Source: Pelagibacterium sp. 26DY04 (GTDB lineage: Bacteria > Pseudomonadota > Alphaproteobacteria > Rhizobiales > Devosiaceae). Taken from it: DNA of 64,000 nt. The notes under the pieces are model-generated. The model was not told the DNA's origin. It was given only the letters and a program-made list of their open reading frames with translations, and searched no databases. The stretch's first letter is position 1. Each line of letters begins with the position of its first letter. The DNA is taken from positions 2,046,001-2,110,000 of the forward strand of contig NZ_CP101731.1 in the NCBI RefSeq assembly GCF_031202305.1, in the 5' to 3' direction. Positions 11,452 to 42,099 of this stretch are shown here, piece by piece. The translations under genes were made by a program, and so were the position numbers.

Positions 11452-11478
11452 TGGTATACCTAAGCTAGAAGACTGTTT

Positions 11479-23724: not shown

Positions 23725-23857
23725 TGCAATTCAATCTTCCATACCAGATTGACGGGCAGGCTAGGGATAGGGCCAGTTGTGTTCTGCCGCAAGCCTCGTT
23801 CTGGGAGAATTTGCCGTTCGGCCGGTGGAGGAACCGGCCTGTGCATGGGAGGAACTT

Positions 23858-24841: not shown

Positions 24842-24869
24842 CGAACCGCCGGCTCCTCCCGGCTGGATA

Positions 24870-24897
24870 GGGAGCACGGCCGCAAGGCCGCGCTCCC
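24870..24897 (+). promoter_or_regulatory. GNRA-capped stem-loop between dctP- and dctQ-like genes
   Basis: GGGAGC-A-CGGCC (24870-24881) pairs with GGCCG-C-GCTCCC (24886-24897) with a single mismatch, capped by the stable tetraloop GCAA. No U tract follows. It likely protects the binding-protein mRNA from 3' decay or partly stops transcription within the 170-base gap. Confidence 0.65.
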
Positions 24898-25012
24898 TGC
24901 CCTCCGAAGCCGGTCAGCCTCGTGGAGCCGCCGCCTCGGGACAAATCCCGGAATAGCAGCGCCAGCCCCTCACCTGGCTTCCGGCAGCCCCAAATCCGCT
25001 CACGGATGATCG

Positions 25013-25540
25013 ATGAACACGATGCTTACCCGCCTTAGCGCCGTTTTCTCCCGCCTCGCCACCCTCGCGCTCTGGGTCGCCGGCATCGGGCTGGTCGCCA
25101 TGACCGTCGCCGTCGCTTGGCAGGTCTATGGCCGCTACGTCCTGGGCTCCACGCCGCGCTACACCGAAGCCCTCTCGATCATGCTCATGGCCTGGTTCAT
25201 ATTCCTGGGCGCCGCCGTCGGCGTCCGCGAGCGCTACCATTTGGGCTTCGACGTGCTGCTCTATTTCGTCCCCCTGCGCGCCAAATCGGTGCTGCGCACC
25301 ATCTCCGATGTCGTCGTCTTCGCCTTCGGGTTCGGCATGGTGGTCTATGGCGGCCAGCTCGCCGCGCTCAACTGGTCGGTCGCTATCCCCACGCTGGGAC
25401 TGCCCGGCTTCATGAGCTTCCTGCCCATCATCACCGGCGGCGTCCTGATCTGCCTGTTCACTATCGAACGCCTGCTACAGCGCTTCGCCGGTCTCGACCC
25501 CGATGGCGATGCCGCCCTCGCAGAAGCCGTGGAGAACTGA
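25013..25540 (+). CDS. TRAP transporter small permease (DctQ family)
   Basis: A 175-residue protein with four membrane segments. The typical AVAWQVYGRYVLGSTPRYTEALSIMLMAWFIFLGAAVGVRERYHLGFDVL signature is present in pieces (VYGRYVLGSTPRYTEAL; VRERYHLGFDVL). It bridges the binding protein and the large permease. ATG 25013 is used, with ATG 25022 as an alternative. The DctM gene begins three bases after its stop. Confidence 0.95.
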   Translation: MNTMLTRLSAVFSRLATLALWVAGIGLVAMTVAVAWQVYGRYVLGSTPRYTEALSIMLMAWFIFLGAAVGVRERYHLGFDVLLYFVPLRAKSVLRTISDVVVFAFGFGMVVYGGQLAALNWSVAIPTLGLPGFMSFLPIITGGVLICLFTIERLLQRFAGLDPDGDAALAEAVEN

Positions 25541-25543
25541 GCG

Positions 25544-26824
25544 ATGGAATTGCTCGTCCTCTTCGGCACTTTCGTCGTCCTGCTCCTGATCGGCACTCCC
25601 ATCGCCTTTTGCTTAGGCGTTGCCTCCTTCGCCACTATCCTTTTCATGGGCTTGCCGCCCGTCGTCGTCTTCCAGCGCCTCCATTCGGGCGTCTCGGTCT
25701 ATTCGCTGATGGCCATCCCCTTCTTCATCTACGCAGGGGATCTGATGGTGCGCGGCGGCATCGCGGCGCGATTAGTGGCGCTGGCTGGCTCGGTTGTCGG
25801 GCATCTGCGTGGTGGGCTTGGTCAGGTCAACATCGCCGCCTCGACCATGTTCGGCGGCATTTCCGGCTCGGCCATCGCCGACGCTTCAGCCATTGGCGGA
25901 TTGATGATTCCGCAGATGAAACAACGCGGCTACGGGGTTGATTACGCCGTCAACATCACCGTCACCTCGGCCGTGATCGCACTGATGATCCCGCCTTCTC
26001 ACAACATGATCATCTATTCCATCTCGGCGGGCGGCCGCATTTCGATCGCAGACCTCTTCACCGCCGGCATTATTCCGGGCCTGCTGTTGACGATCGCGCT
26101 GATGTCCACCGCTTATGTCGTCGCCGTCCGCCGCGGCTATCCAACGGAAAAATTCGCCGGCCTGCGCGTGGTGCTGCAACTGCTCCTCGCCGCCATCCCC
26201 GGCCTGATCCTCATCGGCATCATCTTCGGCGGCGTGCGCTCGGGCGTTTTCACCGCCACCGAAAGCTCGTGCATCGCCATCATCTACGCCTTCCTCGTGA
26301 CGCTGCTGATCTACCGCTCCATGAGCTGGCGCGACTTCGTCGCCGCCACCCTCGGCGCCGTCCGCACCACGGCCATGGTGCTGCTCGTCATCGGCAGCGC
26401 CGCAACCTTCGGCTGGCTCCTCGCCTACACGCGTGTCCCCACCCACCTGATCGAATTCATGCAGGCGATTTCGGACAATCCCATCATCGTCCTCCTGCTC
26501 ATCAACGTGCTGCTGCTGTTCCTGGGCACTTTCATGGACATGTCGCCCCTGATCATCATCACCACCCCCATCTTCCTGCCTGTCGCCGTCGCCTATGGTG
26601 TCGATCCTGTCCATTTCGGGGTGATCATGGTTCTCAACCTGGGCATCGGGCTATGCACCCCGCCCGTGGGATCGGTCCTGTTCGTTGGCTGTGCCGTGGG
26701 CGGTATCCGCATCTGGGACGCGATAAAATCGATCTGGCCCTTCTACTTCGCCGCGATCGCCGTCCTTCTGATCGTCAGCTACATTCCCGCTACGGCCCTC
26801 TGGCTGCCGTCACTGTTTCAGTAG
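25544..26824 (+). CDS. TRAP transporter large permease (DctM family)
   Basis: A 426-residue protein with about twelve hydrophobic segments. It carries MFGGISGSAIADASAIGGLM and PPSHNMIIYSISAGGRISI, the first elevator hairpin, and later FLGTFMDMSPLIIITTPIFLP and NLGIGLCTPPVGSVLFVGC. It is the sodium-coupled transport subunit and last gene of the operon. The FadR-type gene converges on it from the right, 31 bases away. Confidence 0.96.
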   Translation: MELLVLFGTFVVLLLIGTPIAFCLGVASFATILFMGLPPVVVFQRLHSGVSVYSLMAIPFFIYAGDLMVRGGIAARLVALAGSVVGHLRGGLGQVNIAASTMFGGISGSAIADASAIGGLMIPQMKQRGYGVDYAVNITVTSAVIALMIPPSHNMIIYSISAGGRISIADLFTAGIIPGLLLTIALMSTAYVVAVRRGYPTEKFAGLRVVLQLLLAAIPGLILIGIIFGGVRSGVFTATESSCIAIIYAFLVTLLIYRSMSWRDFVAATLGAVRTTAMVLLVIGSAATFGWLLAYTRVPTHLIEFMQAISDNPIIVLLLINVLLLFLGTFMDMSPLIIITTPIFLPVAVAYGVDPVHFGVIMVLNLGIGLCTPPVGSVLFVGCAVGGIRIWDAIKSIWPFYFAAIAVLLIVSYIPATALWLPSLFQ

Positions 26825-26855: not shown

Positions 26856-27572
26856 TCAAATAGCAGTGGTGCCGCGTGGGGACAAAAGACGATCCCGCGA
26901 GCCCGCGATGTGCTGGCGCATCTGGTCCCGTGCACGGGCGGCGTCGCGGTTGGAAATGGCTTCATAGACCGCCGTGTGCTCCACGAATACGTGCTCCAGC
27001 CCGTCATTGGTGCTCTTGAGCGACAGGCCGTGGAATCGCATGCCCACGGCGATGTGATCTTCGAGCGCCTGCATGGCGGTCGCGAAGTACGGATTGGCCG
27101 ACGCCTGGGCGATGCTGAGGTGGAACATGAAATCGGCGTCGACCCGGTGGGCCCGGCGATTGGTAGCGTCACGCAGAAGGCTCAGCGCCGTCCTGATCTT
27201 GCCCAGCGCCTCTTCGGTGCGCCGCTCGGCAGCCATGGCGGCGGCCTCGGGCTCTATTGTGAGACGGAAGTCATAGCAATGCTGCAGGTCCGACAGGTTT
27301 TCCATCTGCCCGAACCCCAAGGGCTCGCGAATGCCCTGCTCGCGCACGAAGCTCCCCGCGCCGCGACGGGAATAGATCAGACCCTGATCGCGCAGCCGCT
27401 GCAATGCGTCTCGGATCACCGGTCGGGAAACCTGGAACTCGGCGGCAAGGGCATGCTCGGTCGGCAGGCGTTCGTCCACGCCATAAGCGCCCGATTTGAT
27501 CGCCTTTTGGATACGCTCGAACACCGTATCCGAAAGGGTGCGGCGAACGTTAAGACCATTCGATAAAGTCAT
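26856..27572 (-). CDS. FadR/GntR-family transcriptional regulator
   Basis: A 238-residue regulator: winged helix with VDERLPTEHALAAEFQVSRPVIRDALQRLRDQGLIYSRRGAGSFV, then an FCD domain (FRLTIEPEAAAMAAERRTEE; DADFMFHLSIAQASANPYF). Its start overlaps the stop of the DUF1537 kinase by four bases, so it is the last gene of a six-gene leftward operon and probably controls it together with the divergent catabolic genes at 33.9-38.1 kb. Confidence 0.93.
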   Translation of the reverse strand: MTLSNGLNVRRTLSDTVFERIQKAIKSGAYGVDERLPTEHALAAEFQVSRPVIRDALQRLRDQGLIYSRRGAGSFVREQGIREPLGFGQMENLSDLQHCYDFRLTIEPEAAAMAAERRTEEALGKIRTALSLLRDATNRRAHRVDADFMFHLSIAQASANPYFATAMQALEDHIAVGMRFHGLSLKSTNDGLEHVFVEHTAVYEAISNRDAARARDQMRQHIAGSRDRLLSPRGTTAI

Positions 27573-28609
27573 GCGCCACCTACCATTGTCCCCATCCCCT
27601 GACGGTTGAGGACATCCACAAATGCATCCGGCCCGCCGAAGCCGCCGGATTTGGTGATTAGCTTGAAGCGGCCGGCAACGGCAAGTGGAAGCCCCGGCAC
27701 CACTTCACCGAGCACCTCAAGCAGATCGATGCCGATAAAATCGAGCACGGCCTGAGCCGTCGCACCGCCGGAAACGACGAGCAGCGCATTGTCCGGTGGA
27801 TCGAGCGTCGCGACGGCCCTTGCGAGATTTTCCGAAACTGTGCCCGCATCGGCTCGCTGCGACCCAGGCGTCGCTTGGATGACGGTGATCGCGTCACTCA
27901 ACCTCGCCCCATCGGGCACCAGGCCATTGGGTGCGGGAAAATAGGCGATATCGGGAAAAGCCCGACGCAGATGGTCGACCTGTTCGAGCGTGATGGGGTC
28001 CGTCGATCCGATCACCACCAGGACCGGTCCACCATGCATGACCTTGCCCGCGCCCCGGCCTCCAATCCCCATGCGCTCAGCCTGCGCTTCAGCGAGCGCC
28101 CTCGCGCCGACAAGCAGATCGTAGCCGCCTCGCTGCAAAGCGGCATGGATATCGTCCTGCGTTGCGGCATCGGGAATGATCGCGCGCGCCGTATGATGGC
28201 CCAGGCGGCCGGCGACGTCGATGGGTGCATCGACGCCAAACCCGCCCAGCTTGCCATCGCGCACCCAGCGCCCGAAGGCCGGAATGGCGGGAACGACGAG
28301 CGCCTTGCTGAAGGTAAGCGCATCGAGTTCGGCCACCAGATTGCCCTTGAGGCGCGAGTCGATCTTCTTGAAGGCCTTAGTGCCCCTCGGAAACGCCCGC
28401 CACGCCGCCGCTGTCCTTTCGCACGCCTCTGCGGGCGCGACGTCGCGGCTATCGGTTGAGACCGCGACGACCCTGGCGCCCGTGTCTATGGCCTTTCCCA
28501 AAGCCGCCGGCGATAGGGCGACAATCGTGCGATGGCCGCACGCGGCAAAGGGCGCGGCGGAATCCAGCGCGCCCGAGAGATCGTCAGCGATGATCGCCAG
28601 TTCCGTCAT
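27569..28609 (-). CDS. Four-carbon acid sugar kinase family protein (DUF1537)
   Basis: A 346-residue protein, shorter than the usual ~420. The N-terminal domain has LAIIADDLSGALDSAAPFA and FKKIDSRLKGNLVAELDAL, the phosphoacceptor-site motifs; the C-terminal domain has VIGSTDPITLEQVDHLRRAF and a nucleotide-type LVVSGGATAQAVLDFIGID, ending with KSGGFGGPDAFVDVL. DUF1537 kinases phosphorylate four-carbon acids such as D-threonate, L-threonate or D-erythronate. The PdxA-like dehydrogenase in the divergent operon is the known partner type. The gene overlaps the ATPase start by four bases. Confidence 0.87.
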   Translation of the reverse strand: MTELAIIADDLSGALDSAAPFAACGHRTIVALSPAALGKAIDTGARVVAVSTDSRDVAPAEACERTAAAWRAFPRGTKAFKKIDSRLKGNLVAELDALTFSKALVVPAIPAFGRWVRDGKLGGFGVDAPIDVAGRLGHHTARAIIPDAATQDDIHAALQRGGYDLLVGARALAEAQAERMGIGGRGAGKVMHGGPVLVVIGSTDPITLEQVDHLRRAFPDIAYFPAPNGLVPDGARLSDAITVIQATPGSQRADAGTVSENLARAVATLDPPDNALLVVSGGATAQAVLDFIGIDLLEVLGEVVPGLPLAVAGRFKLITKSGGFGGPDAFVDVLNRQGMGTMVGGA

Positions 28610-30222
28610 GCGGAAGTGGCCGCCACGAGCCGTCTTTGGGCCTGGACATCCGGATCGGGGTCGAGATTGGCCGCCAGGAGCTTTTGCGTATAGGGGTGCC
28701 GGGGGGCGTTGAAGACCTGCTCGGTGGGACCGCGTTCCACGATCTCCCCCGATTTCATCACCAGCACCATATCGGCGAAATCCCGCACAACGCCAAGATC
28801 ATGGGCAATGAAGAGATAGGAGATGCCGAGCTTTTCCCGCAAACCGTCGAGCAGCGCCATCACCTGGGCCTGGACCGAAACGTCGAGGGCGGACACCGCC
28901 TCGTCACAGATAATCAGCTCAGGTTCGAAAGCGAGTGCCCGGGCGATGGCGATGCGCTGGCGCTGGCCACCCGAGAATTGATGCGGATAACGGTGGGCGT
29001 GCTCAGGTAACAGGCCGACCTGTTCGAGCAGTTCGGCCACCCGGGCGCGACGCGCCTTGCGGTCCGGCATCAAGCGGTGAATGTCCCAGGCCTCGGATAT
29101 GAGCTGATAGACCGACATGCGCGGATTGAGCGACTGCGTGGGGTCCTGAAACACCATCTGGATGTCACGGCGCACGGCGAGCAATTCGCGTGCCGGCATG
29201 ATGATGAGGTCCCTGCCCTTCCACAGCGCCTTTCCGCTATCGGCTTTTTCGAGGCGCAGAATGGTGCGCGCCAGGGTCGATTTGCCCGATCCGCTCTCGC
29301 CGACCACGGCGAGGCTCTGCCCGCGTGCCAGCGAAAAGGAAACCCCGTTTAGCGCCGTGAAATTGCCATAGGTCTTGGCAAGATCGGTCACCTCGAGCAG
29401 AACCGGCGCCTCTTTTGCCGGCTGCTTGATCTCGCCCTTGCCCGGCGCGGCGCCGATGAGTTTGCGCGTATAGGGGTGCTGTGGATTGTGATAAACCTCG
29501 CGGGCAGTTCCCCGCTCGACGATCTCCCCCTCGTTCATCACGATCACCCGGTCCGCGATTTCGGCGACCACGCCCAGATCGTGGGTGATGAGCACGAGCC
29601 CCATACCTGTTTCGGCCTGCAACTCCTTCAGCAGCGTCAGCACCTCGGCCTGTATCGTGACATCGAGCGCCGTGGTGGGCTCGTCGGCGATCAAGATGTC
29701 TGGCTTAAGCATCAGCGCCATGGCGATCATCAGGCGCTGGCGCTGTCCGCCCGAGAACTCGTGCGGATACTTCCTCAGCGCCTTTTCCGGTTCGGGCAGT
29801 CCCACCCGCGTCACCAGTTCCAGAGCCCGCGCGCGAGCCATCTCGAGCGGACGGCCATGGGCCGTCATCATCTCGATGATCTGCCAACCCACCGTATAGA
29901 CCGGATTGAGGTGTCCCAGCGGATCCTGGAAGATCATCGCGATCCGCTTGCCATTGAGCGCCCGGTGCTCCTCATAGCTGACCTTGAGCAGGTCCTTGCC
30001 CTCGAACATCACCTCCCCGCTCACCACCTCGGCAGGCGGGATATCGAGCAGGTTCATGACCGCCGATGCGGACACCGATTTGCCCGATCCGCTCTCTCCG
30101 AGGATGGCCAGCGTCTCTCCGCGATCCACCGACCAGGAGACATTGCGCACGGCATGCACCGTCCCGCGCGCGGTGTGAAAATCAACCGACAGGTTGCGGA
30201 CGGCGAGCAGGGCTTGAGTCAT
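28606..30222 (-). CDS. Dipeptide/nickel-type ABC transporter, fused double ATPase (DppD-DppF)
   Basis: A 538-residue protein with two complete ATPase halves. Half one: LGESGSGKSVSASAVMNLL, FSGGQRQRLMIAMALMLKPD, ILIADEPTTALDVT. Half two from residue ~275: VVGESGSGKSTLARTILRLE, FSGGQRQRIAIARALAFEP, LIICDEAVSALDVS. Each half ends with the oligopeptide-type C terminus (HNPQHPYTRKLIGA; NAPRHPYTQKLLAA). It powers the two permeases encoded just upstream. Both catalytic Glu residues are kept. Confidence 0.95.
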   Translation of the reverse strand: MTQALLAVRNLSVDFHTARGTVHAVRNVSWSVDRGETLAILGESGSGKSVSASAVMNLLDIPPAEVVSGEVMFEGKDLLKVSYEEHRALNGKRIAMIFQDPLGHLNPVYTVGWQIIEMMTAHGRPLEMARARALELVTRVGLPEPEKALRKYPHEFSGGQRQRLMIAMALMLKPDILIADEPTTALDVTIQAEVLTLLKELQAETGMGLVLITHDLGVVAEIADRVIVMNEGEIVERGTAREVYHNPQHPYTRKLIGAAPGKGEIKQPAKEAPVLLEVTDLAKTYGNFTALNGVSFSLARGQSLAVVGESGSGKSTLARTILRLEKADSGKALWKGRDLIIMPARELLAVRRDIQMVFQDPTQSLNPRMSVYQLISEAWDIHRLMPDRKARRARVAELLEQVGLLPEHAHRYPHQFSGGQRQRIAIARALAFEPELIICDEAVSALDVSVQAQVMALLDGLREKLGISYLFIAHDLGVVRDFADMVLVMKSGEIVERGPTEQVFNAPRHPYTQKLLAANLDPDPDVQAQRRLVAATSA

Positions 30223-31142
30223 GTCCTGTCCTTTCGGCTTTCAAGACGCCAGCGCTGGGCCGGATCGAGCGCGATACGCATCCAGTTGGAGAGCAGGTTG
30301 AGCGCCAGGGCGGTGATGACGATCATCAGCCCCGGCCAGAAGGCCAGCCACCAGGCCGAGTTGAGATAGGGCCGCCCCTGGCTGACCATTAGGCCCCAGG
30401 TGATGTTGGGCGGCTGAATGCCGATACCCAGGAACGAGAGCGAGGATTCGGCCAGCATGACGAAGGCGAAATCAAGCGTCGCGATGGTAATCAGCGTCGG
30501 GGCGATGATCGGCAGGATATGGCGGAAAATGATGCGCCAGTGGGAGGCGCCCATCACCACCGCCGCCTGCACGAACATGCGTTCGCGCACTTCGAGCACT
30601 TCGGCGCGCGTGGTGCGCAGATAGATGGGAATGCGGGTGATTGCGAGCACCAGGATCATGTTGGGGATCGAAGGCCCGAGAACATAGAGCACCACCACGG
30701 CAAGCAGCAGCGAGGGGAAGGACATGATGACGTCCGCAAGCCGCATGATGACCTGCGAAACGGTCTTGCCCATATAGCCGGCGATCAGCCCGAACAGCGC
30801 CCCCACTGTCAGGGCGGAAAGCACGGCGCCGGCGGCAACCATCATCGTGCTTTGCGCCGCGACGATCAGACGGGCCAGCATCGGCCGGCCCAGCGTGTCG
30901 CCGCCGAGCACGAAAATCCAGCCGCGTGAGAGATCGAACGGCGGGCTGTTGCGTCCGCGCAGGTTCTGGTCGGTCGCCAGCTCTCCGAGGAGCGGCGGGC
31001 CGAAAACCGCGCAGGCGATGATGATGAGCAACACCACCGCCGAAGCAAAGGCCAGCTTGTCCCTCCACAGCATGGAAAGAAGCGCCCTGCCCTTGCCCGA
31101 GGGCTTGGCAGGCGAAGCTGACGTGAGAGATGTGTCGGTCAT
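30219..31142 (-). CDS. Dipeptide-type ABC transporter permease (DppC family)
   Basis: A 307-residue membrane protein. An N-terminal cytoplasmic tail precedes the first helix (LAFASAVVLLIIIACAVFG) and the region with LGGDTLGRPMLARLIVAAQ; the EAA loop is AAVVMGASHWRIIFRHILPIIAPT. It pairs with the DppB-type gene 11 bases upstream. The start and stop overlap neighbouring genes by a few bases. Confidence 0.94.
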   Translation of the reverse strand: MTDTSLTSASPAKPSGKGRALLSMLWRDKLAFASAVVLLIIIACAVFGPPLLGELATDQNLRGRNSPPFDLSRGWIFVLGGDTLGRPMLARLIVAAQSTMMVAAGAVLSALTVGALFGLIAGYMGKTVSQVIMRLADVIMSFPSLLLAVVVLYVLGPSIPNMILVLAITRIPIYLRTTRAEVLEVRERMFVQAAVVMGASHWRIIFRHILPIIAPTLITIATLDFAFVMLAESSLSFLGIGIQPPNITWGLMVSQGRPYLNSAWWLAFWPGLMIVITALALNLLSNWMRIALDPAQRWRLESRKDRT

Positions 31143-31153
31143 CGGGGCGCTCC

Positions 31154-32077
31154 TTACTGCCGGATGCGCGGATCGAGGATCGAATAGGCGATGTCGATCA
31201 GGATGTTCATGATGAAAATGGCGATGGCGGTGACGAGGATTGCGGCCATGACCACGTTGAAATCGCGCTGCAGGATGGAATCGATCATCAGCTTGCCGAC
31301 GCCGGGAAATCCGAAGATCGTTTCCACGATCACCGCGCCGTTGAGCAGCGCCGCCGCCTGATCGCCGATTACGGTGATGACCGGCAGCATGGCGTTGCGC
31401 AGGGTGTGTACGAAGATGATGGGGCGGTTCTTGACGCCCTTGGCACGCGCCGTCTTGACGTAGGGGGCCGCAAGCGCGGACAGCATGGAGCCCCGCACCA
31501 CCTGCACGATCAGCCCGAACGGGCGGATGAACAGCACCGCGACGGGCATGATCCAGTGCCAGGGCGTTCCCACCCCCGATGTGGGCAGCCAGCCCAGATT
31601 GATGGCGAAAAGCACGATGGCGACAATGGCGATCCAGAAATCGGGCGCCGAAGCCCCGATCAGCGAAACGACCGAAATGCCACGATCGATGATGCCGCCC
31701 ACATTGAAGGCGGCGATGGCGCCCAGAACGATGGCGGCGGCGACCACCAGGGTCATGGTGATCAGGGCCAGCGGCAGCGTCCAGGCATAGGCCTCCAGCA
31801 CCACATCGATGGCAGGCCGGGCCTGGCGCAGCGACTCCCCGAGATCGAGCCGGAGCACGTCCATGACATACATACTGAACTGCTCGATGACCGGACGATC
31901 CAATCCGTGAAGCGCGCGGAACTGCTGCTTCATCTCCTCGGTCGCGTCGATCGGAAGAAACAGCGCCGCCGGATCACCCGTCAGGCGCGAGAGAAAGAAG
32001 ACCATCACCATGAGGACAATCAGCGAAAAGAAGCTGGCAATCGCTCTCTGGCCGACCAGTTTGATCATGGGTGTCAC
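31154..32077 (-). CDS. Dipeptide-type ABC transporter permease (DppB family)
   Basis: A 307-residue membrane protein with the DppB N-terminal layout (LSRLTGDPAALFLPIDATEEMKQQFRALHGLDRPVIEQF) and EAA loop KTARAKGVKNRPIIFVHTLRNAMLPVI. ATG 32077 is used; ATG 32068 (MIKLVG) is possible. It is separated from the binding-protein gene by a spacer with a strong stem-loop. Confidence 0.94.
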   Translation of the reverse strand: MTPMIKLVGQRAIASFFSLIVLMVMVFFLSRLTGDPAALFLPIDATEEMKQQFRALHGLDRPVIEQFSMYVMDVLRLDLGESLRQARPAIDVVLEAYAWTLPLALITMTLVVAAAIVLGAIAAFNVGGIIDRGISVVSLIGASAPDFWIAIVAIVLFAINLGWLPTSGVGTPWHWIMPVAVLFIRPFGLIVQVVRGSMLSALAAPYVKTARAKGVKNRPIIFVHTLRNAMLPVITVIGDQAAALLNGAVIVETIFGFPGVGKLMIDSILQRDFNVVMAAILVTAIAIFIMNILIDIAYSILDPRIRQ

Positions 32078-32094
32078 CGATCCGTTTTCGAAAA

Positions 32095-32122
32095 GGGCGG
32101 CGCCGGCTCTCCGACGCCGCCC
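32095..32122 (-). promoter_or_regulatory. Stem-loop between binding-protein and permease genes
   Basis: On the minus strand GGGCGGCG pairs perfectly with CGCCGCCC around a 12-base loop, followed by TTTTCG. It stands 20 bases after the binding-protein stop and may act as a leaky terminator that lowers permease expression. Confidence 0.65.
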
Positions 32123-32142
32123 GTCAATGCTTCGTCAGGGCT

Positions 32143-33648
32143 CTAGTTGAAGCCGATCTCGGAGAGCTGGAGCTGCGAGTTGGTGGCAATGGTGGGACGG
32201 AAATCCAACCGTTCGCTCACCCGGCTGTGCCCGACCATGTGGAACAGGAGCACGTCGGCATAAAGCTCGTCATGGACCACCGCGAAGAGCTCGGACCAGA
32301 GCGCGGAACGCTCGTCTCCGGTCGCGGCCGTTGCGCGTTCGATCAGGTCATCCACCTCTGGATCGGCAATGCCCGACTGGGTGCCTTCGCTGTGATATTT
32401 GAAGGCGGCCGAGAACACCGGATCACCGCGGCTGTTATCGTGCTGGGCAAGGATCAGGCGCGTGCCTTCGCTTTCCGGATAGGGCTTGGAGTAATACTGC
32501 TCGTGCTCGGCCACTTCCACCATGCGCAGGGTCGCGTTGAACCCGACATCGGTCAGCATCTGGGTCAGCGCTTCGGCAACTTCAGCCACGTTGGGAAAGT
32601 TCTCGGTCCGCGCGATGATCTCGATGGGCAAGCTCACATCGACCCCATCGGCCTCCGCTTCGGCCAGGAGCTGGCGCGCCAGGTCGGGATCGAAGGCATG
32701 CGGCACGAGATCGCCGTTCCAGCCGAGCGTGGTCGGCGGAACGATGGCCACGGCAAGGTCGGTGCCTTCGGCCAAAAGCGTTCCGATAAACGCCTCGCGA
32801 TCGATCGCATGGTTCAGCGCCTGGCGGACGCGAAGATCGCTGGTGGGCGCGTCGGCGCTATCGATCCGCAGATAGACGGTTTCGGAATTGGGATAGCTGA
32901 AGTCGGTCGCCGGGTTAGTGGCTTCCAGTTCGGTGATCTGGGGCGCGATATCGGCCTCCCCGGTTTCCACCATGGCGGCGCGCACGGCAGCCTCGCTGCG
33001 GAAGACGTAGCGGGCCGAAGTCACTTCCGGCTGCTCGCCCCAATAGTCGTCGCGGCGGTCAAGCTGGATGTATTGGCCGATAGCCCGATCGGAAAGCACG
33101 TAAGGTCCGGTACCGATCGGTTCGTCGACAAACTCCATCGGCGTTTCCGACGGCACGATGGTCACCAGCGTCATCAGCAGCGGCAGGATCGGCTGGGCCG
33201 GCTCGGCCGTGATATCGATCGTCAGGTCATCGACGACCTCGAAGCTGAGTTCGGTATCGGCGAAATAGCGGGCACTCTCGCAGGTGATCTGATCGGAGAA
33301 CACGCGCGCAAAGGAGTGTTCAACGTCGGCGGCATCAAAGCTCGTGCCGTCCGAGAACGAGACGTCCGGGCGCAGGTTGAAGCGCCAGGTGCCCTCCCCG
33401 AGATCTTCCCAGCTTTCAGCCAACCTTGGCATCAGCCCCGCATCGCCCCGCACGTCGAGCTGGGTGAGCGTCTCGCTGATATTCTGCATGATGACGCGGC
33501 CGATGTTGGAACGGGTCGCCATGCAGGGCTCGACAAGATCGAGCTCCTCGCTGAGCACCACGGTGATGTCGGTATTGTCCTGCGCAAGCGCGGGGCTCAC
33601 GGCGGTCGACGTAAGCAAAGCGCCGGCAATCAGATATCTCAGAGTCAA
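32143..33648 (-). CDS. Dipeptide-type ABC transporter substrate-binding protein (SBP family 5)
   Basis: A 501-residue periplasmic protein. Signal peptide (M)TLRYLIAGALLTSTAVSPALA is followed by QDNTDITVVLSEELDLVEPCM. Family-5 motifs include ALNHAIDREAFIGTLLAEGTDLA and LPLLMTLVTIVPSE. No ATG fits before the signal peptide; the start is TTG 33648, preceded by GGGAGGA at five bases, so I assign a TTG start. It is first in the leftward operon. Family-5 proteins bind peptides but also oligosaccharides and opines, and here the catabolic neighbours suggest a sugar-like ligand. Confidence 0.93.
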   Translation of the reverse strand: MTLRYLIAGALLTSTAVSPALAQDNTDITVVLSEELDLVEPCMATRSNIGRVIMQNISETLTQLDVRGDAGLMPRLAESWEDLGEGTWRFNLRPDVSFSDGTSFDAADVEHSFARVFSDQITCESARYFADTELSFEVVDDLTIDITAEPAQPILPLLMTLVTIVPSETPMEFVDEPIGTGPYVLSDRAIGQYIQLDRRDDYWGEQPEVTSARYVFRSEAAVRAAMVETGEADIAPQITELEATNPATDFSYPNSETVYLRIDSADAPTSDLRVRQALNHAIDREAFIGTLLAEGTDLAVAIVPPTTLGWNGDLVPHAFDPDLARQLLAEAEADGVDVSLPIEIIARTENFPNVAEVAEALTQMLTDVGFNATLRMVEVAEHEQYYSKPYPESEGTRLILAQHDNSRGDPVFSAAFKYHSEGTQSGIADPEVDDLIERATAATGDERSALWSELFAVVHDELYADVLLFHMVGHSRVSERLDFRPTIATNSQLQLSEIGFN

Positions 33649-33844
33649 TGCTTCCTCCCTTGGCAGCGTCCTGTAGCGGCTGGACGGCGCTGCCCGAGCG
33701 CCCAGCGGCGATAACGTGACCCGGCTCGACAGCCGAACCCGCACCACTATCCAACTCCGCCGCCATAGTTGTCAAACTAAAATTCGAGATGTCATCGCAA
33801 ACCGAGATTTTTGCCTATCTATCTAATTGTTTTCATTTGTATTT

Positions 33845-33860
33845 TTTTCATATATGAAAA
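33845..33860. promoter_or_regulatory. Perfect AT-rich palindrome in the divergent promoter region
   Basis: TTTTCATATATGAAAA is a perfect 16-base palindrome in the AT-rich spacer between the importer operon and the sialidase-led operon. It is a good operator candidate for a dimeric regulator, for example the FadR-type protein of this cluster. TTGACA at 33892-33897 may be the rightward -35 box, and a leftward TTGACA lies near 33770. Confidence 0.45.
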
Positions 33861-33944
33861 TTCTCATTACAAATTATGGGACATGAATAACTTGACAACA
33901 TTGCTAACACGGTGAAGGTAAAGGCACGCGAAGTGGGAGGGACC

Positions 33945-35114
33945 ATGTCTCCGGACGATATTGCCACAGCCATGACGGGGCGGCTGACACCAGGGAAATC
34001 AGGCCGCGTGGAGGCGTTCTTGCCCTCGCCCATGGTTCAGAATCACGCCGCCTTCATCGAGCGCCTGGATGACGGGACGCTCGCCTGCCTCTGGTTCGGT
34101 GGAACGCTGGAAGGCAAATCGGATATCTCGATCTTCGGCAGCACGCTCGCGCCCGGTGCCGATCAATGGAGCGCCCCGATCCAGCTTTCCGACGACCTCG
34201 ATCGTTCCGAGCAAAATCCCGTGCTCGCCCATAACGGGCGCGGCTGGCAGCTCTTCCACACCGCCCAACCCGCCGGCAATCAGGACGAATGCCTGCTGCG
34301 CGCGCGCAATATCTCGCTGACCGGCGGACGCCTGACCGCCGATGCGCCGCGCACCATCGATCTGCCGCTCGGCTGCTTCATCCGCGGGCGCTTCGTGCGC
34401 CGGACGGACGGGGCATGGATGATGCCGATCTTCCGTTGCGTTTCCCGTCCCGGCCAACGCTGGACGGGCAGCCACGACACGGCGGCCGTCGGTGTGAGCC
34501 ATGACGACGGAGAAACGTGGTCGCTCCAGGAGGTGCCGGGCTCCATCGGATCGGTGCACATGACCATCGTTCCGCTCGATGGCGAGCGCATGGTCGCCTT
34601 CTATCGCCGCCGGCAGTCCGATTTCGTCCACCGTTCGGTCAGCGAAGATGGCGGGGTGACCTGGTCGCCCCCTGAGCCCACGGACGTGCCCAACAACAAC
34701 TCCTCGATCAACGTGGTCCGGCTCGCCGACGGCCGCCTTGCCATGATCTGCAATCCCGTCTCGGCGGCCACCTCGACGGACCGGCGCGCCTCGCTCTACG
34801 ACGAAATCGAGGAGGGCGACGACCGACCCGACGCCACCGGCGGCTGCGAGCCGATCTGGGGCGTGCCGCGCGCCCCGCTGACCCTGTGCATTTCGACCGA
34901 CGAGGGCCGGACCTTCCCACAGCGCCGGATCGTCGACGACAGCCCCGGCACGTGCCTTTCCAACAATTCGGAAGACGGCCGCAACAAGGAGCTGTCCTAT
35001 CCTTATCTGCTCGAAGGAGATGATGGCGCGCTTCACCTCGCCTACACCTACTTCCGGCGTGCAATCAAATATGTCCGCCTCCCCCAGGGCTGGATCGACG
35101 GAGAAGAAGCGTGA
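33945..35114 (+). CDS. Sialidase/BNR-repeat family protein (cytoplasmic)
   Basis: A 389-residue six-bladed propeller of the exo-alpha-sialidase superfamily. Asp-box repeats (S-x-D-x-G-x-T) are visible: [28 protein letters not shown] and [44 protein letters not shown] marks the N-terminal blade. ATG 33945 follows GGGAGGG; a GTG at 33912 is a poorer start. No signal peptide is present, so it should act inside the cell on an imported compound. Related non-sialidase members occur in sugar-acid clusters, so sialic acid should not be assumed. Confidence 0.82.
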
Positions 35115-36061
35115 GCGATACGATCGGCATCACAATGGGCGATCCGGCGGGCGTCGGGCCGGAAATCACCGTCAGGGCCATCGCCGAGATGAGCGAGGCC
35201 GACCGGGCGCGCACCCGCATCTACGGTCACCGCCAGACTTTGGAAAAGGCTCTCGAAAGCTCGGGCCTTTCGCTCGATCTCGATCCGCTGGTCGCTGATA
35301 TCGAGATCGATGGGGGCGTTCTGCCCTGGGGCAAGCTCGATGCGCGCGCCGGCGATGCCGCTTACCGCTTCATTGCCAGCGCCGTCTCGGATGCCAGCGC
35401 CGACAAGATCGGCTGCATCGTGACAGCTCCGATCAACAAGGAAGCGCTCAACCTGGCCGGACACCACTATGACGGCCATACCGGCATGCTGGCCGCGCTG
35501 ACCGGTCAGCGTTCGGCCTTCATGCTGCTGGCGTCCGAGCGGCTCAAGGTGATCCACGTCTCGACCCACGTTTCGCTCAAGACGGCGATCGACCGGGCGA
35601 CGCCCGAACGCATCCTCGCCACCATCCGCGCGGGCAACGATCATCTCAAGCGGATCGGCTACAAAAAGCCGCGCATCGCAGTGGCCGGGATCAATCCCCA
35701 TTGCGGCGAGAACGGCCTGTTCGGAACCGAAGATGACGAACAGATCGTCCCGGCCGTCGAGATGGCGCGAGCCGAGGGGATCGATGTGGCCGGCCCCATC
35801 TCGGCGGATACAGTCTACTACCGCGCCTATAACGGCGCCTTCGATCTGGTGGTCGCGCAATATCACGACCAGGGCCATATCCCCATAAAGCTGGTCGCCT
35901 TCGATACGGCGGTCAATGTCTCGCTCGGCCTGCCCATCGACCGCACGTCCGTCGATCACGGCACGGCCTTCGACATCGCCGGCACCGGCAAGGCCAACCA
36001 CACCAACATGAACGCCGCCATAGCTTATGCGCGCAAGCTGGCAGCTGGGAGAGCACGATGA
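35111..36061 (+). CDS. PdxA-family 4-phosphate dehydrogenase (PdxA2-like, probable 4-phospho-threonate/erythronate dehydrogenase)
   Basis: A 316-residue NAD-dependent oxidative decarboxylase of the PdxA family: [34 protein letters not shown] with metal/substrate His, [35 protein letters not shown] and [20 protein letters not shown]. True pdxA normally neighbours surA/ksgA; here it lies with a DUF1537 kinase, DapA-type aldolase and dehydrogenase, as PdxA2 proteins of four-carbon acid degradation do. Those convert 4-phospho-D-threonate or -erythronate to dihydroxyacetone phosphate and CO2. It overlaps both neighbours by four bases. Confidence 0.88.
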
Positions 36062-36987
36062 ACCCTGCCCGCGACCTTCCCATCAGCGGCGTGTTCTGCG
36101 CCGCCGCCACGCCGATCCTCGATAGCGGTGAGCCCGATCACCCCATCTTTGCCAGCCACTGCAAGGCCCTGCTGGAGGAAGGCTGCGACGGCATTGCGCT
36201 GCTGGGGACCACCGGGGAGGCCAATTCGTTTTCCATTGCGCAACGGCAGGCTTTGCTCGACGATCTCATCGTCGCGGGCGTCGATCCCCGGCGCCTCATG
36301 CCGGGAACCTCGCAGACGAATGTCGCCGACAGCGTGACCCTCACCCGGCACGCCGTCGAATGCGGCGTTGCTGCCTGCGTGGTGTTGCCGCCCTTCTACT
36401 ACAAGGGCGTGAGCGACGAGGGCCTGTTCCGCTTTTATGCCGAGCTCATCGAAAAGGTGGGCAGCAACGATCTGCGGATCGTCCTCTACCACATTCCACC
36501 CATCGCCCAGGTCGGGCTGTCGATGGAATTGGTTGCTCGTCTGGTCGAGCATTTCCCCGGTATCGTCGTGGGCATCAAGGACAGCTCGGGCAAGCTCGAG
36601 AGCATGCAGGGTTTTGCCAGCACCTTCCGCGATTTCTCCGTCTTCTCGGGAGCCGATCCGTTCATGCTGCCCCTGCTCCGGTCCGGTGGCGCCGGCTGCA
36701 TCACGTCAAGCTCGAACCTCATCGCCCATCATCTGCGCTTGGTTTTCGACAACTGGTTCGATCCGGCCCGTACTGGCGAGGTGGATCGTGCTCAGGAGCG
36801 TATCGATGCCTGGCGCAATCTCTCCAACGCTTATGTGCAGCTTCCGACCGTCAAGGCAATGCTGGCCCGGCGACGGAACCATGACGGCTGGACGCGCGTG
36901 CGCCCGCCCCTGGTCGAACTCGGGCCGGACGAGATCGAAACGGTCTGGCGACGGATGGAAGAACTCGAGGCTATCGAAAATGACTGA
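36058..36987 (+). CDS. DapA-family (dihydrodipicolinate synthase / N-acetylneuraminate lyase superfamily) aldolase
   Basis: A 309-residue class I aldolase. The pyruvate site [18 protein letters not shown], the proton-relay Tyr in [16 protein letters not shown] and the Schiff-base Lys in [14 protein letters not shown] are all present. Members cleave or form 2-keto-3-deoxy acids through pyruvate; a housekeeping dapA role is unlikely in this operon. With a sialidase-like protein upstream it could act as an ulosonic or 2-keto-3-deoxy sugar acid lyase. Its end overlaps the dehydrogenase start. Confidence 0.86.
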
Positions 36988-38119
36988 GCCCGTCCTTTCA
37001 ATGGCCCGGCCGATCACCATAGCGCAGCCGGGCAAACTGGAGATCGGGGCCGGCGCGATCGCGCGGCTCGGGACCTTCGCCAACCGTTACGACCGAGTCT
37101 TCGTCGTCGCGATGGGGCCGACCGCGCCCTTTGTCGACCGGATCGGACTTAACGGAACCGTCGAGACCTATATCGACCTGCCGCCCGAGCCCGACCTGCC
37201 TTCGGTCGAGGCCGTGCTCGATGCGGCGCGGGCGTTCAAGCCCGATCTGGTGATCGGCTTGGGTGGCGGATCGGCCATGGACGTCGCCAAGCTCGTCGCC
37301 GTGCTCTGGGACAGCGAGCAGACGATCTCCGAGGTGGTCGGGGTCGGCAAGGTGAAGGGCCGCCGCACTGGTCTGGTCCAGGTTCCCACCACATCGGGCA
37401 CCGGCTCGGAAGCGGGCACCCGCGCACTGGTCACCGATCCGGAAACGCTCGCCAAGCTGGCCGTGGAAAGCGAGCACATGCTGGCCGACATGGCGGTGCT
37501 CGACCCCGAGCTTACCTATTCGGTTCCTGCCCCGGTTACCGCCGCGACGGGCATCGACGCCCTGGCCCATTGCGTGGAAGCCTTCACCAACATAAAGGCG
37601 CACCCGCTTATCGATGGTTATGCAAGGCTGGGCATCGAACTTGTTGGGCGATACCTCAAGCGCGCCGTCGCCAATGGTGCAGATGTCGAGGCGCGGGCCG
37701 GCATGATGCTCGCGTCCTACTATGGTGGCATCTGCCTCGGCCCCGTCAACACCGCCGCCGGACACGCTTTGGCCTACCCGCTCGGCACGCGCCTCAAGCT
37801 GCCGCATGGCCTGGCCAACGCCATTGTCTTCCCTCACGTTCTCGCGTTCAACGCCCCTGCCCGGCCGGAAAAGACCCGCGAGATCCTCGCCCGGCTCGGC
37901 CTTCCTGGCGATGAAAGCACACAGGCCGTGCTGGCCGCCGCTCATGACTATTGCCGCGATCTCGGCGTCGAAATGGCTCTCGCCCGGCACGGAGCCACGG
38001 CCGACGAGCTACCGCAATGGGCCGACGAAGCCCACGCCATCCGACGCCTCATGGACAACAATCCCCGCGTCATGAGCACCGAGGACGTGCTTTCCATCTA
38101 TCGTGCCGCTCTGGATTGA
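36980..38119 (+). CDS. Iron-containing alcohol dehydrogenase family protein
   Basis: A 379-residue group III dehydrogenase. NAD site GLGGGSAMDVAKLVAVLW near residue 85, the PTTSGTGSEAGTRALVTD stretch, and metal His residues in ALAHCVEAFTN, AAGHALAYPLG and LPHGLANAIVFPHVLAFN. ATG 36980 lies in the end of the aldolase gene, so translation is coupled. It would reduce the aldehyde from the aldolase step or oxidise a hydroxy acid. It closes the rightward operon. Confidence 0.9.
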   Translation: MTEPVLSMARPITIAQPGKLEIGAGAIARLGTFANRYDRVFVVAMGPTAPFVDRIGLNGTVETYIDLPPEPDLPSVEAVLDAARAFKPDLVIGLGGGSAMDVAKLVAVLWDSEQTISEVVGVGKVKGRRTGLVQVPTTSGTGSEAGTRALVTDPETLAKLAVESEHMLADMAVLDPELTYSVPAPVTAATGIDALAHCVEAFTNIKAHPLIDGYARLGIELVGRYLKRAVANGADVEARAGMMLASYYGGICLGPVNTAAGHALAYPLGTRLKLPHGLANAIVFPHVLAFNAPARPEKTREILARLGLPGDESTQAVLAAAHDYCRDLGVEMALARHGATADELPQWADEAHAIRRLMDNNPRVMSTEDVLSIYRAALD

Positions 38120-39840: not shown

Positions 39841-42099
39841 GTGACTGGCGAACTCAACGCCTTTAACAACCGGAAGGGTCGTGGCGCGATGCGCCTGCTG
39901 CTCTCTGGAACCGCCTTGACGCTTGCGTCATTGGCCGGAGGAGCAGCTCTCTCTCAGGAATATACCACTGAGGAGCAGGTCGCGCGCGGTGCGACAACCT
40001 ATGCCCAGCAGTGCTCCACCTGCCACGGACAGGACATAGTCGAATCGATCGCCGGTTACCCCGACGCTTCCCTGTTCTATAGCTTCATCTCGTCGGCCAT
40101 GCCGGCCAATGCTCCCGGCAGCCTGCCGGCTCAGCAATACGCCGATATCGTCGCATATCTGCTGAACGAGAACGGCTACCCCATCGGCACCGAAGAGCTC
40201 CCCGCAGATCCCGAAATCCTCGCTCAGATCGACCCGCGCGCCATCGAGGCCGCCCCGGCTGGCGATGATGCGGCTGCCGAGGAACCTGCCGCTGAGGAAG
40301 CTCCGGCTGAAGAGCCTGCAGCAGAAGAAGCTCCGGCTGAAGAGCCCGCGGCCGAAGAAGCTCCGGCTGAAGAAGCCGCGGCTCCTGCTGCCCAGGCCGT
40401 GCCGCCTTCGATCGTCACCCAGGTCTCCGAGTGGGAGGGTGAATACACCCCCGTCACCGACGAGATGCTTCTTGATCCCAATCCGGCCGACTGGCTGCAG
40501 TGGCGTCGTACGGTCAACAACTGGGGCCACAGCCCGCTTGATCAGATCAACCGCGACAACGTCGCCGATCTCGAACCGGTCTGGAGCTGGGCTCTGGGCG
40601 AAGCTGGCCAGCAGGAAGTCGTGCCGATCATTCACGACGGCATCATGTTCGTTGCCACCAACAACAACTACGTCGAAGCTCTCGACGCGGTTACCGGCGA
40701 CCTGATCTGGTCCTACACCCACAGCCGCCCCGAATTCACCGGCGGCTACCACAACAACCAGGCCATGCGTCAGAAGAACTCCGTTGCCCTCTATGAGGAC
40801 AGCGTCATTCTGACCACGGTCGACGCCAAGCTCGTGTCGCTGAACGCCCTGACCGGTCAGGTCGAATGGGAAGTTCAGGTCAACGATTGGGAAAAGGGCT
40901 ACAGCTTCACCGCCGGCCCGTTGATCGCTGATGGCAAGATCTTCACCGGCACTTCGGGCTGCTCCATCGTGGGCACCGCCGGCGCTTGCTACATCACCGC
41001 TCACGATGCCACCAACGGTGAAGAACTCTGGCGTTTCAACACGTTGGCTGATCCCAACAACCCCGACGTGGATGCAAGCTGGAACGGCGTTCCGCCTGAA
41101 AACCGCTGGGGTGGTTCCATCTGGGCCACCGGTTCGTACGATCCGGAACTGGATATGACCTTCTTCGGCACCGCGATTCCGCTCCCCTACGCGGAAATCA
41201 CCCGCGGCACCGGCGACGGCGACGTGCTCTACACCAACGCCACCCTGGCTCTCGAAGCCGATACGGGCGAACTGGTGTGGTACTATCAGCACCTGCCGCG
41301 CGACAACTGGGACCTGGACTCCCCGTTCGAGCGTATGATCGTCGACGCCGAAGTGAACGGTGAAACCCGCAAGATGGTCGTCACCACTCCGGGCAAGAAC
41401 GGCATCACCTGGGGCCTGGACGCCGCGACCGGCGAATTCATCTGGGCTGAAGAGACCATCTACCAGAACGTGGTGTCCGACATCGATCCGGAAACCGGCA
41501 CTGTGAGCCTCAACGAAGAGGTCATCCCGACCGAATTCGGTGAGTCGTTCACCTTCTGCCCGGCCATCCCTGGTGGTCGTCTGTGGCAGGCAACCGCATA
41601 CAGCCCCGATTCGGGCCTGTTCTATCTGCCGGCTGCCAACACCTGCCAGACCAGCGCTGCGCGTAAATTCGCAGAGGCTGCCCCCGGCACGTCCATGGGT
41701 CTGTTCCAGACCTTCGGCGAAAGCCTGGCTCCGGGCGCGGAAGGCGTTGGCGCTCTGCACGCGCTCAATGCCGCTGATGGTTCGGATGGCTTCGAAGTCC
41801 AGCAGGGTCCGCGCTTCACCTCCTCGATCCTGGCCACCGGTGGCGGCCTGATCTTCGTGGGTGACGCCGACCGCTACATCAAGGCGATGAACGACGAGAC
41901 CGGTGAAGTGCTCTGGCAGGAACGCCTGGCTGCTCCGATCGGTGGTTCGCCGGTGACCTACGAGGTCGATGGCGTTCAGTACCTGGTCGTTGCCTCCGGT
42001 CAGTCCAACCAGACTCACGCGGCTCTGACCCCCGGCCTGGCTTCGCCGCGCATGGGTGGTAACGCGATCCACGTGTACCGTCTGCCCGACCAGGAATAA
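39841..42099 (+). CDS. PQQ-dependent quinohemoprotein dehydrogenase with N-terminal cytochrome c domain
   Basis: A 752-residue periplasmic enzyme. GTG 39841 is chosen because AAGGAG lies eight bases ahead; ATG 39889 has none. Signal peptide to about residue 38 (MRLLLSGTALTLASLAGGAALS). A class I cytochrome c domain has CSTCHG at residues 58-63. Residues ~140-185 are an Ala/Glu/Pro linker. From ~205 to the end is an eight-bladed PQQ propeller with repeated ALDAVTGDLIWSY-type W motifs. Residues 490-493 read WDLD, matching the catalytic Asp plus the extra Asp that marks lanthanide-dependent alcohol dehydrogenases. The gene favours CTG, GGT and CGT codons, suggesting high expression. Confidence 0.92.
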   Translation: MTGELNAFNNRKGRGAMRLLLSGTALTLASLAGGAALSQEYTTEEQVARGATTYAQQCSTCHGQDIVESIAGYPDASLFYSFISSAMPANAPGSLPAQQYADIVAYLLNENGYPIGTEELPADPEILAQIDPRAIEAAPAGDDAAAEEPAAEEAPAEEPAAEEAPAEEPAAEEAPAEEAAAPAAQAVPPSIVTQVSEWEGEYTPVTDEMLLDPNPADWLQWRRTVNNWGHSPLDQINRDNVADLEPVWSWALGEAGQQEVVPIIHDGIMFVATNNNYVEALDAVTGDLIWSYTHSRPEFTGGYHNNQAMRQKNSVALYEDSVILTTVDAKLVSLNALTGQVEWEVQVNDWEKGYSFTAGPLIADGKIFTGTSGCSIVGTAGACYITAHDATNGEELWRFNTLADPNNPDVDASWNGVPPENRWGGSIWATGSYDPELDMTFFGTAIPLPYAEITRGTGDGDVLYTNATLALEADTGELVWYYQHLPRDNWDLDSPFERMIVDAEVNGETRKMVVTTPGKNGITWGLDAATGEFIWAEETIYQNVVSDIDPETGTVSLNEEVIPTEFGESFTFCPAIPGGRLWQATAYSPDSGLFYLPAANTCQTSAARKFAEAAPGTSMGLFQTFGESLAPGAEGVGALHALNAADGSDGFEVQQGPRFTSSILATGGGLIFVGDADRYIKAMNDETGEVLWQERLAAPIGGSPVTYEVDGVQYLVVASGQSNQTHAALTPGLASPRMGGNAIHVYRLPDQE
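40288..40377 (+). repeat. Three tandem 30-base repeats encoding an acidic Ala/Glu/Pro linker
   Basis: Three in-frame copies of a 30-base unit encode AAEEAPAEEP, with small variation in the last copy. They form the flexible hinge between the cytochrome and PQQ domains. Copy number may vary between strains. Confidence 0.85.

Follow-up and report, generated by a model that had tools for sequence, protein, structure and literature searches.

A window of 64,000 nucleotides from the genome of Pelagibacterium sp. 26DY04 (contig NZ_CP101731.1, positions 2,046,001 to 2,110,000; "window" denotes this whole stretch) contains a cluster of ten genes in two divergent operons at 26856–38119. The cluster combines an ATP-binding cassette (ABC) importer and a regulator with five enzymes: a BNR/Asp-box protein of predicted sialidase fold (BNR protein), a PdxA2-type dehydrogenase, a DapA-type aldolase, an iron-type alcohol dehydrogenase (Fe-ADH) and a DUF1537 kinase. 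We see an even chance that it is a catabolic route for 3-deoxy-D-lyxo-hept-2-ulosaric acid (Dha) or a Dha glycoside. More tentatively, at somewhat below even confidence, it may represent a widespread, undescribed pathway from Dha to pyruvate and dihydroxyacetone phosphate via D-threuronate and D-threonate, at the head of which would stand a cytoplasmic enzyme with a sialidase fold that founds a new family of glycosidases. The gene set, its co-conservation, a pair of sites between the operons, the protein families and the predicted fold of the BNR protein were obtained by computation; all of the biochemistry we infer. Dha as the substrate is our own proposal, and an earlier sequence-only reading of this DNA named no substrate. 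A literature search of open-licence papers returned, among the matches listed, no description of Dha catabolism in bacteria and, by term counts, no paper joining D-threonate or DUF1537 with Dha. Nor did any such paper contain at least four of six terms chosen for this gene set.

Organization of the gene cluster

The protein families were assigned by Pfam/NCBIfam profile scans of the window proteins. The genome is a single contig of 3,887,506 bases. Outward from the centre, the minus strand carries the genes of the family-5 binding protein, two permeases, the fused ATPase, the DUF1537 kinase and the FCD-GntR regulator. The plus strand carries, in this order, those of the BNR protein, PdxA, the DapA-type aldolase and Fe-ADH.

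26856..27572, minus strand: regulator of the FadR/GntR type carrying an FCD ligand domain, probably repressing both operons (PF07729 90.9 bits, PF00392 65.8 bits, both above cut-off; in 53 of 54 loci compared)
27569..28609, minus strand: short DUF1537 four-carbon acid kinase of 346 amino acids, predicted D-threonate kinase (PF07005 80.2 bits, PF17042 65.5 bits)
28606..30222, minus strand: fused dipeptide-type ABC importer ATPase (two ABC_tran stretches; PF00005 215.1 bits)
30219..31142, minus strand: ABC permease, DppC type (PF00528 109.7 bits)
31154..32077, minus strand: ABC permease, DppB type (PF00528 120.4 bits)
32143..33648, minus strand: family-5 solute-binding protein, probable TTG start at 33648, signal peptide by eye (PF00496 235.7 bits)
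33769..33775, plus strand: conserved TTGTCAA site, overlapping a promoter-like -35 box of the importer operon (46 of 48 regions)
33846..33859, plus strand: palindrome TTTCATATATGAAA noted in the sequence-only reading, as such not shared (dyad comparison)
33889..33899, plus strand: conserved AACTTGACAAC site ahead of the enzyme operon, in opposite orientation to the TTGTCAA site (CTTGACAA in 44 of 48 regions)
33945..35114, plus strand: cytoplasmic BNR/Asp-box protein of sialidase fold, with a predicted role as Dha glycosidase or as a helper in ring opening
35111..36061, plus strand: PdxA2-type 4-phosphate dehydrogenase, predicted D-threonate-4-phosphate dehydrogenase (PF04166 334 bits)
36058..36987, plus strand: DapA-type pyruvate aldolase (DHDPS family), predicted Dha aldolase (PF00701 141.6 bits)
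36980..38119, plus strand: iron-type alcohol dehydrogenase, predicted D-threuronate reductase (PF00465 117.4 bits, PF25137 164.5 bits)

Two operons are likely because same-strand neighbours overlap or are at most 65 bases apart; on the plus strand, each of the four genes overlaps the next. The Fe-ADH gene starts with the ATG at 36980, within the 3' end of the DapA gene. For the BNR protein the ATG at 33945 is the more likely start, judging from its ribosome site GGGAGGGACC and from the homologues, which start there too. SBP_bac_5, two permeases and the ATPase are all present, which defines the importer as a family-5 (dipeptide/nickel type) ABC system. The ten genes of the sequence-only reading are all borne out in position and family.

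Conservation of the gene set

A scan of genomes with the BNR protein gave 62 loci, of which the 54 with a length of at least 18 kb were counted and 8 shorter ones were set aside. All five enzyme families occur together in 51 of the 54 loci. The ABC parts, the binding protein, DapA and Fe-ADH are each present in all 54, the GntR regulator in 53, and PdxA and the DUF1537 kinase in 52 each. Locus L070 has neither PdxA, kinase nor regulator. L068 has no kinase, and its cluster reaches the start of the fetched stretch. The PdxA of L018 is probably present despite the missing count, the BNR frame extending into its place: at 10010–12145 of this locus the frame is 711 amino acids long and runs into the region of PdxA elsewhere, either by a frame change or as a real fusion. 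The BNR homologue of L064 (10019–11191) has a stretch that is seemingly frame-shifted compared to other homologues. Pelagibacterium sediminicola also carries the cluster. Gene order varies among Devosia-type, rhizobial and rhodobacterial loci, and since it differs between clades, co-inheritance by mere neighbourhood is unlikely. The view that the two halves form one co-conserved route, put forward in the sequence-only reading, has thus passed the co-occurrence check without being refuted.

Inspection of 26 further homologous loci (L072–L084, L087, L108–L116 and L125–L127), several of them from the same species or genome, showed the five enzymes complete in 20. Gene calls for these loci were partly taken from record annotations, and the kinase of a Comamonadaceae strain was assigned by record annotation and profile score. 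L073 stops at a contig end ahead of the kinase. In a search of 398 Pseudomonadota genomes, 20 had a match to the BNR protein including the window's own, 11 of them strong (559–676 bits) and 9 weak (76–123 bits). Many hosts are plant-associated or marine, and one is the Comamonadaceae strain, from an Arabidopsis leaf. Among 308 plasmid records, 128 are from Rhizobium, 78 from Sinorhizobium and 27 from Pantoea.

Parts of the set have been exchanged between clades. A different aldolase lineage is found in 22 of the 54 loci (many rhizobia, Paracoccus and Aureimonas), with 23–24% identity to that of the window in five aligned sequences; its gene can be the one most distant within the importer operon. 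L051, L081 and L082 are examples that keep the window's lineage. A third DapA lineage (21% identity, one aligned) is present in Pantoea-type loci, Klebsiella and the Comamonadaceae strain, accompanied by a different Fe-ADH (33%, three aligned) and a short-chain dehydrogenase/reductase (SDR). The transporter of the Pantoea-type and Klebsiella loci is an SSS symporter; the Comamonadaceae cluster adjoins a tripartite tricarboxylate-type binding protein instead. The kinase and PdxA pair, too, is exchanged for distant relatives in other clades with the functions kept. Because single parts are repeatedly replaced by remote relatives, it is the set of activities that seems to be required, each step included.

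The four-carbon acid module

The window kinase belongs to the DUF1537 superfamily (80.2 against a cut-off of 25 for PF07005 and 65.5 against 28.3 for PF17042), with the middle of the protein reduced. It keeps the KKIDS, PA.P and KSGGFG-type motifs. The adjacent enzyme is a PdxA superfamily member (TIGR00557, 345.1 against 290.35; PF04166, 334 against 27), with 2hi1 and 6e85 (D-threonate 4-phosphate dehydrogenase) among the best relatives in the PDB. Vitamin B6 synthesis was rejected as its task, a second PdxA gene being present elsewhere in the genome. Among 21 genomes, all five with the cluster have two PdxA copies; of the other 16, two genomes (G007 and G010) have two, 13 have one and G011 has none.

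The assignment to D-threonate comes from gammaproteobacterial relatives. The kinases of L113, L114 and L126 reach the NCBI D-threonate equivalog with 613.5, 615.4 and 505.7 (cut-off 450), and their PdxA2 proteins do so with 681.5, 681.5 and 665.1 (cut-off 583). The Pantoea PdxA is likewise above this cut-off (653.8). L113 and L114 are from one genus, which is in the same family as a genome carrying a Pantoea locus, and L126 is from a Klebsiella record. In these three loci the genes of kinase and PdxA are divergent from a Fe-ADH-DapA-SSS-BNR-YhcH-SDR series. "Threonate or erythronate", as first suggested for the module, can therefore be narrowed to D-threonate through these relatives, though not through the window's own proteins.

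The short form of the kinase, defined by a PF07005 match limited to the first 125–153 profile positions, was sought in 61 genomes. It is present in seven of eight genomes with a BNR homologue, the exception being G058, where the cluster runs to the contig end, and in one of 53 genomes without (G036). A 67-residue match of G052 was left out of the eight, and partial matches of G014, G015, G019 and G028 were not counted as short. In G036 the short kinase gene is divergent from a PdxA2-like gene (locus L130, 9036–11300). Its neighbours are an amino-acid-type ABC importer, assigned by eye, and a hydroxyisobutyrate-dehydrogenase-like gene; the pair is perhaps a free four-carbon acid operon.

Aldolase, dehydrogenase and the proposed route

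The window aldolase is a member of the DHDPS/NAL superfamily (PF00701, 141.6 against 22.1). K174 and Y144, which correspond to the Schiff-base lysine and the active-site tyrosine of these aldolases, are invariant in 21 of 21 aligned sequences. Its scores are below the cut-offs of NanA (TIGR00683, 71.8 against 382) and of 4-hydroxy-tetrahydrodipicolinate synthase DapA (TIGR00674, 132.5 against 206.15). Fe-ADH has the iron-type domain, and its Asp/His metal ligands D195, H199, H264 and H278 (numbering from 36974) are invariant in eight of eight sequences.

The best named relative of the regulator is NanR (118.2, cut-off 260). This and the sialidase-like fold of the BNR protein would suit a sialidase, a NanA-like lyase and a NanR-like regulator for catabolism of sialic acid or 3-deoxy-D-manno-oct-2-ulosonic acid (Kdo). 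Cleavage of Kdo or N-acetylneuraminic acid yields D-arabinose or N-acetylmannosamine, for which neither D-threonate kinase nor PdxA2 is needed. With the cut-offs of NanA, NanR and DapA all missed as well, this explanation was rejected as highly improbable.

Because the gammaproteobacterial kinases and PdxA2 proteins reach the D-threonate equivalogs and a YhcH-family protein is present in the same loci (L113, L114 and L126), a cyclic 2-keto-3-deoxy acid should enter the route, lose pyruvate and yield D-threonate. PMC8141875 describes YhcH as opening the ring of cyclic ulosonic acids so that an aldolase can act on them. The YhcH proteins of L083, L113 and L126 score 96.3, 105.0 and 109.7 with the N-acetylneuraminate anomerase model; the cut-off of 160 is missed, so that these values indicate family membership only. 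If a four-carbon acid is left after pyruvate cleavage and aldehyde reduction, the substrate must be a seven-carbon diacid, i.e. a 3-deoxy-heptulosaric acid. The stereochemistry was derived by hand in Fischer projection. In the D-lyxo isomer C4, C5 and C6 point left, left and right; after C3–C4 cleavage C4 is the aldehyde, C5 points left, C6 points right and C7 is the carboxyl group. The reduced product, when turned, reads carboxyl, left, right, CH2OH, which is D-threonate. The D-lyxo isomer is Dha, the sugar of rhamnogalacturonan II (RG-II). Among the four possible four-carbon acids, the predicted one is that for which the gammaproteobacterial enzymes are named. Carbon count and stereochemistry therefore fit Dha.

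In the proposed route, Dha or a Dha glycoside would be imported by the family-5 ABC system, and the BNR protein would release Dha from the glycoside in the cytoplasm or ready it for the aldolase. The aldolase would cut Dha between C3 and C4 to give pyruvate and D-threuronate, the aldehyde of which would be reduced to D-threonate by Fe-ADH. The DUF1537 kinase would then form D-threonate 4-phosphate, and oxidation and decarboxylation by PdxA2 would give dihydroxyacetone phosphate and CO2. These last two steps form a module that is established elsewhere. Two elements of the sequence-only reading find support: the coupling of aldol cleavage to removal of a four-carbon acid through kinase and PdxA2, and an acidic sugar of the ulosonic type.

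With a 3-deoxy-heptulosonic or other ulosonic acid as substrate, the aldolase would yield D-threose, a dehydrogenase would oxidise this to D-threonate and Fe-ADH would have another task. The SDR in the SSS-type and Comamonadaceae operons speaks for such an oxidation. Among the alphaproteobacterial ABC-type loci for which SDR matches were listed, however, only L060 (57%) has one. Moreover, enzymes of the Fe-ADH type reduce aldehydes or oxidise alcohols rather than form acids. This alternative is distinctly improbable.

The BNR protein

No signal peptide was recognized by eye in the BNR protein. Its predicted fold is the sialidase propeller of GH33, and the best structural matches are GH33-type sialidases. 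The HMMER alignment to NanC/NanB pairs H205 with a Glu and R221 with an Arg. These positions may be catalytic ones, and by motif reading Y352 is a candidate nucleophile. The PDB entry 5mqr, presumably the GH143 Dha hydrolase BT1020, is a weak sequence match (E 0.0076). It is not among the 50 structural matches listed, which excludes nothing.

With His in place of the Glu of NanC/NanB, the sialidase-type cleavage suggested by the sequence-only reading has no clear support. The BNR protein may be either a glycosidase or a ring-opening helper. Within the Dha route, it is rather unlikely that the protein acts as a mutarotase or lactonase on the free sugar acid and not as a glycosidase. The His at the sialidase Glu position and the small-acid transporters of the beta- and gammaproteobacterial loci agree with this, but Pantoea and other gammaproteobacterial loci with the BNR protein already have an anomerase-related YhcH-type protein adjoining it.

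The transporters also bear on the size of the substrate. Family-5 importers carry larger solutes, with agrocinopine and peptide binders among the PDB relatives of this one, and the BNR fold is a glycosidase fold. Accordingly, the importer might take up a conjugate containing a four-carbon acid for cleavage by the BNR protein; one part would then go to the aldolase and Fe-ADH, the four-carbon acid to the kinase and PdxA2. In several relatives, however, an SSS symporter accompanies the same enzymes, and one relative has a tricarboxylate-type binding protein next to them; both are typical of small acids. We know of no conjugate of this kind, and its involvement appears improbable. For the same reason, the substrate is not necessarily the larger conjugate suggested earlier.

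The intergenic control region

The exact palindrome TTTCATATATGAAA is present in the window, but it is absent from the five best dyads listed for each of 17 other loci. L012 and L014 have other dyads at a similar distance. The palindrome was thus rejected as a shared operator; conserved instead is an inverted site pair. It was compared in 48 regions, that of the window and those of 47 loci out of the 62, with 15 omitted. A pair of inverted AACTTGACAAC-type sites, approximately 120 nt apart, is kept between the operons in 42 of them. CTTGACAA occurs in 44 regions against 0.5% of mononucleotide shuffles; TTGTCAA occurs in 46, but is a shorter word, the shuffle control having been run for CTTGACAA only. 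Both sites contain TTGACA boxes, one of which scored promoter-like. Their conservation may partly be due to the promoter, beyond which the conserved flanks extend. The arrangement suggests single control of both operons, probably by the FCD-GntR regulator through the site pair. The conserved element is therefore this pair and not the one palindrome previously placed at the centre of the operons. As a whole, the earlier scheme is partly supported: a co-conserved aldolase-to-four-carbon route on an acidic sugar is borne out, a large conjugate and sialidase cleavage have no clear support, and the palindrome is not the conserved element.

Sources of Dha and a pectin island in Streptomyces

Dha is a seven-carbon analogue of sialic acid, and the known hydrolase, GH143, is a propeller, as described in a passage of PMC6811678. 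In RG-II it is part of a disaccharide side chain (chain D) on galacturonan with an arabinose cap (passages in PMC12282258 and PMC6811678). It is also reported, in parts of PMC10762512 and PMC7693365, for prasinophyte scales and Tetraselmis cell walls, and this occurrence suits marine hosts. According to a passage in a review, Dha standards are lacking (PMC12168206).

A plasmid of Streptomyces sp. NBC_00184 (L119, 100–149 kb) encodes a BNR homologue (36%) inside a pectin island, where DapA-type and dipeptide-type ABC genes of its own accompany it. By Pfam, this island has glycoside hydrolases GH78, GH95 and GH127, a pectinesterase and an apiosidase-like protein; record annotation adds one GH2 gene and three of GH28. 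The island further contains a RuBisCO-like gene and a DUF1537 kinase gene. Scores are below the equivalog cut-offs for aceric acid hydrolase (397.4 against 950), OiaX (386.8 against 700) and OiaK (264 against 700). A near copy of the BNR-ABC-DapA part is found in Streptomyces sp. NBC_00841 (L128). The island also has a xylose-isomerase-like TIM-barrel gene (L119, 8455–9498), whose 58% homologue in Pantoea piersonii (L087, 14920–15912) is near SSS-BNR-YhcH-SDR.

Observations at odds with the proposed Dha route

Several observations weigh against this interpretation. The window kinase misses the D-threonate kinase cut-off (NF047819, 87.9 against 450), the window PdxA misses that of D-threonate-4-phosphate dehydrogenase (NF002891, 321.6 against 583), and the other alpha- and betaproteobacterial kinases and PdxAs scanned are likewise below the D-threonate cut-offs. 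In G036 the short kinase is found beside a PdxA (71%), while 19.9 kb of sequence around them hold neither BNR nor DapA nor Fe-ADH. This fits a modular end piece for four-carbon acids, but shows that kinase and PdxA are not confined to the proposed route. Nor does the scheme assign a task to the SDR found in SSS-type loci.

BNR homologues also occur without the full set. L083 and L111 are without kinase, L115 has SSS, BNR and SDR only, and L087 and L127 have the same plus YhcH. None of the partners is near the remote homologues L086 (Haladaptatus, 26%), L117 and L118, the latter two being the contexts viewed among the nine weak Pseudomonadota matches.

In Streptomyces, PdxA and Fe-ADH are not annotated in the 49 kb of the island, for which the table may be incomplete, and were not found in 41 kb of L128. 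The island kinase scores only 56.4 for D-threonate kinase, and Kdo, also present in RG-II, could explain this locus. Comparison of 12 island proteins with L001–L118 (without L085) returned only GH127 in L023 and L080 and the TIM-barrel homologue in L087. An apiosidase family match is absent from the window genome. With few pectin genes near the other loci and no apiosidase match, the alphaproteobacterial hosts would be scavengers of released fragments.

Neighbouring genes

A TRAP transporter (DctP, DctQ and DctM; window 23777–26824) ends 31 bases before the cluster and is convergent with the GntR gene. At 39841–42099 the window encodes a propeller protein of the pyrroloquinoline quinone (PQQ)-type alcohol dehydrogenases, which carries a cytochrome c domain at its N terminus and a long linker of Ala/Glu/Pro repeats.

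Relation to known systems and implications

The D-threonate pathway (DtnK and PdxA2) pairs the same two enzyme families, and its curated cut-offs are reached in three gammaproteobacterial loci. Here, however, the module would be fed by aldolase, Fe-ADH and BNR protein, and the window kinase is short (346 amino acids) and below the cut-off. The nan operons share a sialidase-fold protein, a DapA-superfamily lyase and a GntR regulator; an SSS symporter and a homologue of YhcH are further features in common with the gammaproteobacterial members. In contrast to nan genes, those described here miss the NanA, NanR and anomerase cut-offs and would lead to D-threonate, not to N-acetylmannosamine. The D-apiose/apionate routes use the DUF1537 kinase OiaK and the RuBisCO-like OiaX. 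Like the proposed route, they degrade an RG-II sugar acid through a DUF1537 kinase, but decarboxylation is by the RuBisCO-like protein there and would be by PdxA2 here. In RG-II degradation by Bacteroides thetaiotaomicron, Dha is cleaved by a propeller, GH143 (passage in PMC6811678). As far as that source describes it, GH143 is a two-module enzyme with a five-bladed propeller and a Tyr-Glu pair (PMC6811678), whereas the window BNR protein is a single domain that matches GH33-type sialidases, which are six-bladed.

Few plant polysaccharides are as complex as RG-II. The proposed route, if true, would account for bacterial disposal of its Dha, of which the papers listed gave no description. It would identify a natural origin of the D-threonate on which the PdxA2/DUF1537 module acts. 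The turnover of pectin and algal scales would be tied to a defined operon, and gene markers for Dha breakdown would become available. The candidate route extends over rhizobia, Devosia, Paracoccus, Pantoea and the Comamonadaceae strain, and its enzymes could serve to make Dha.

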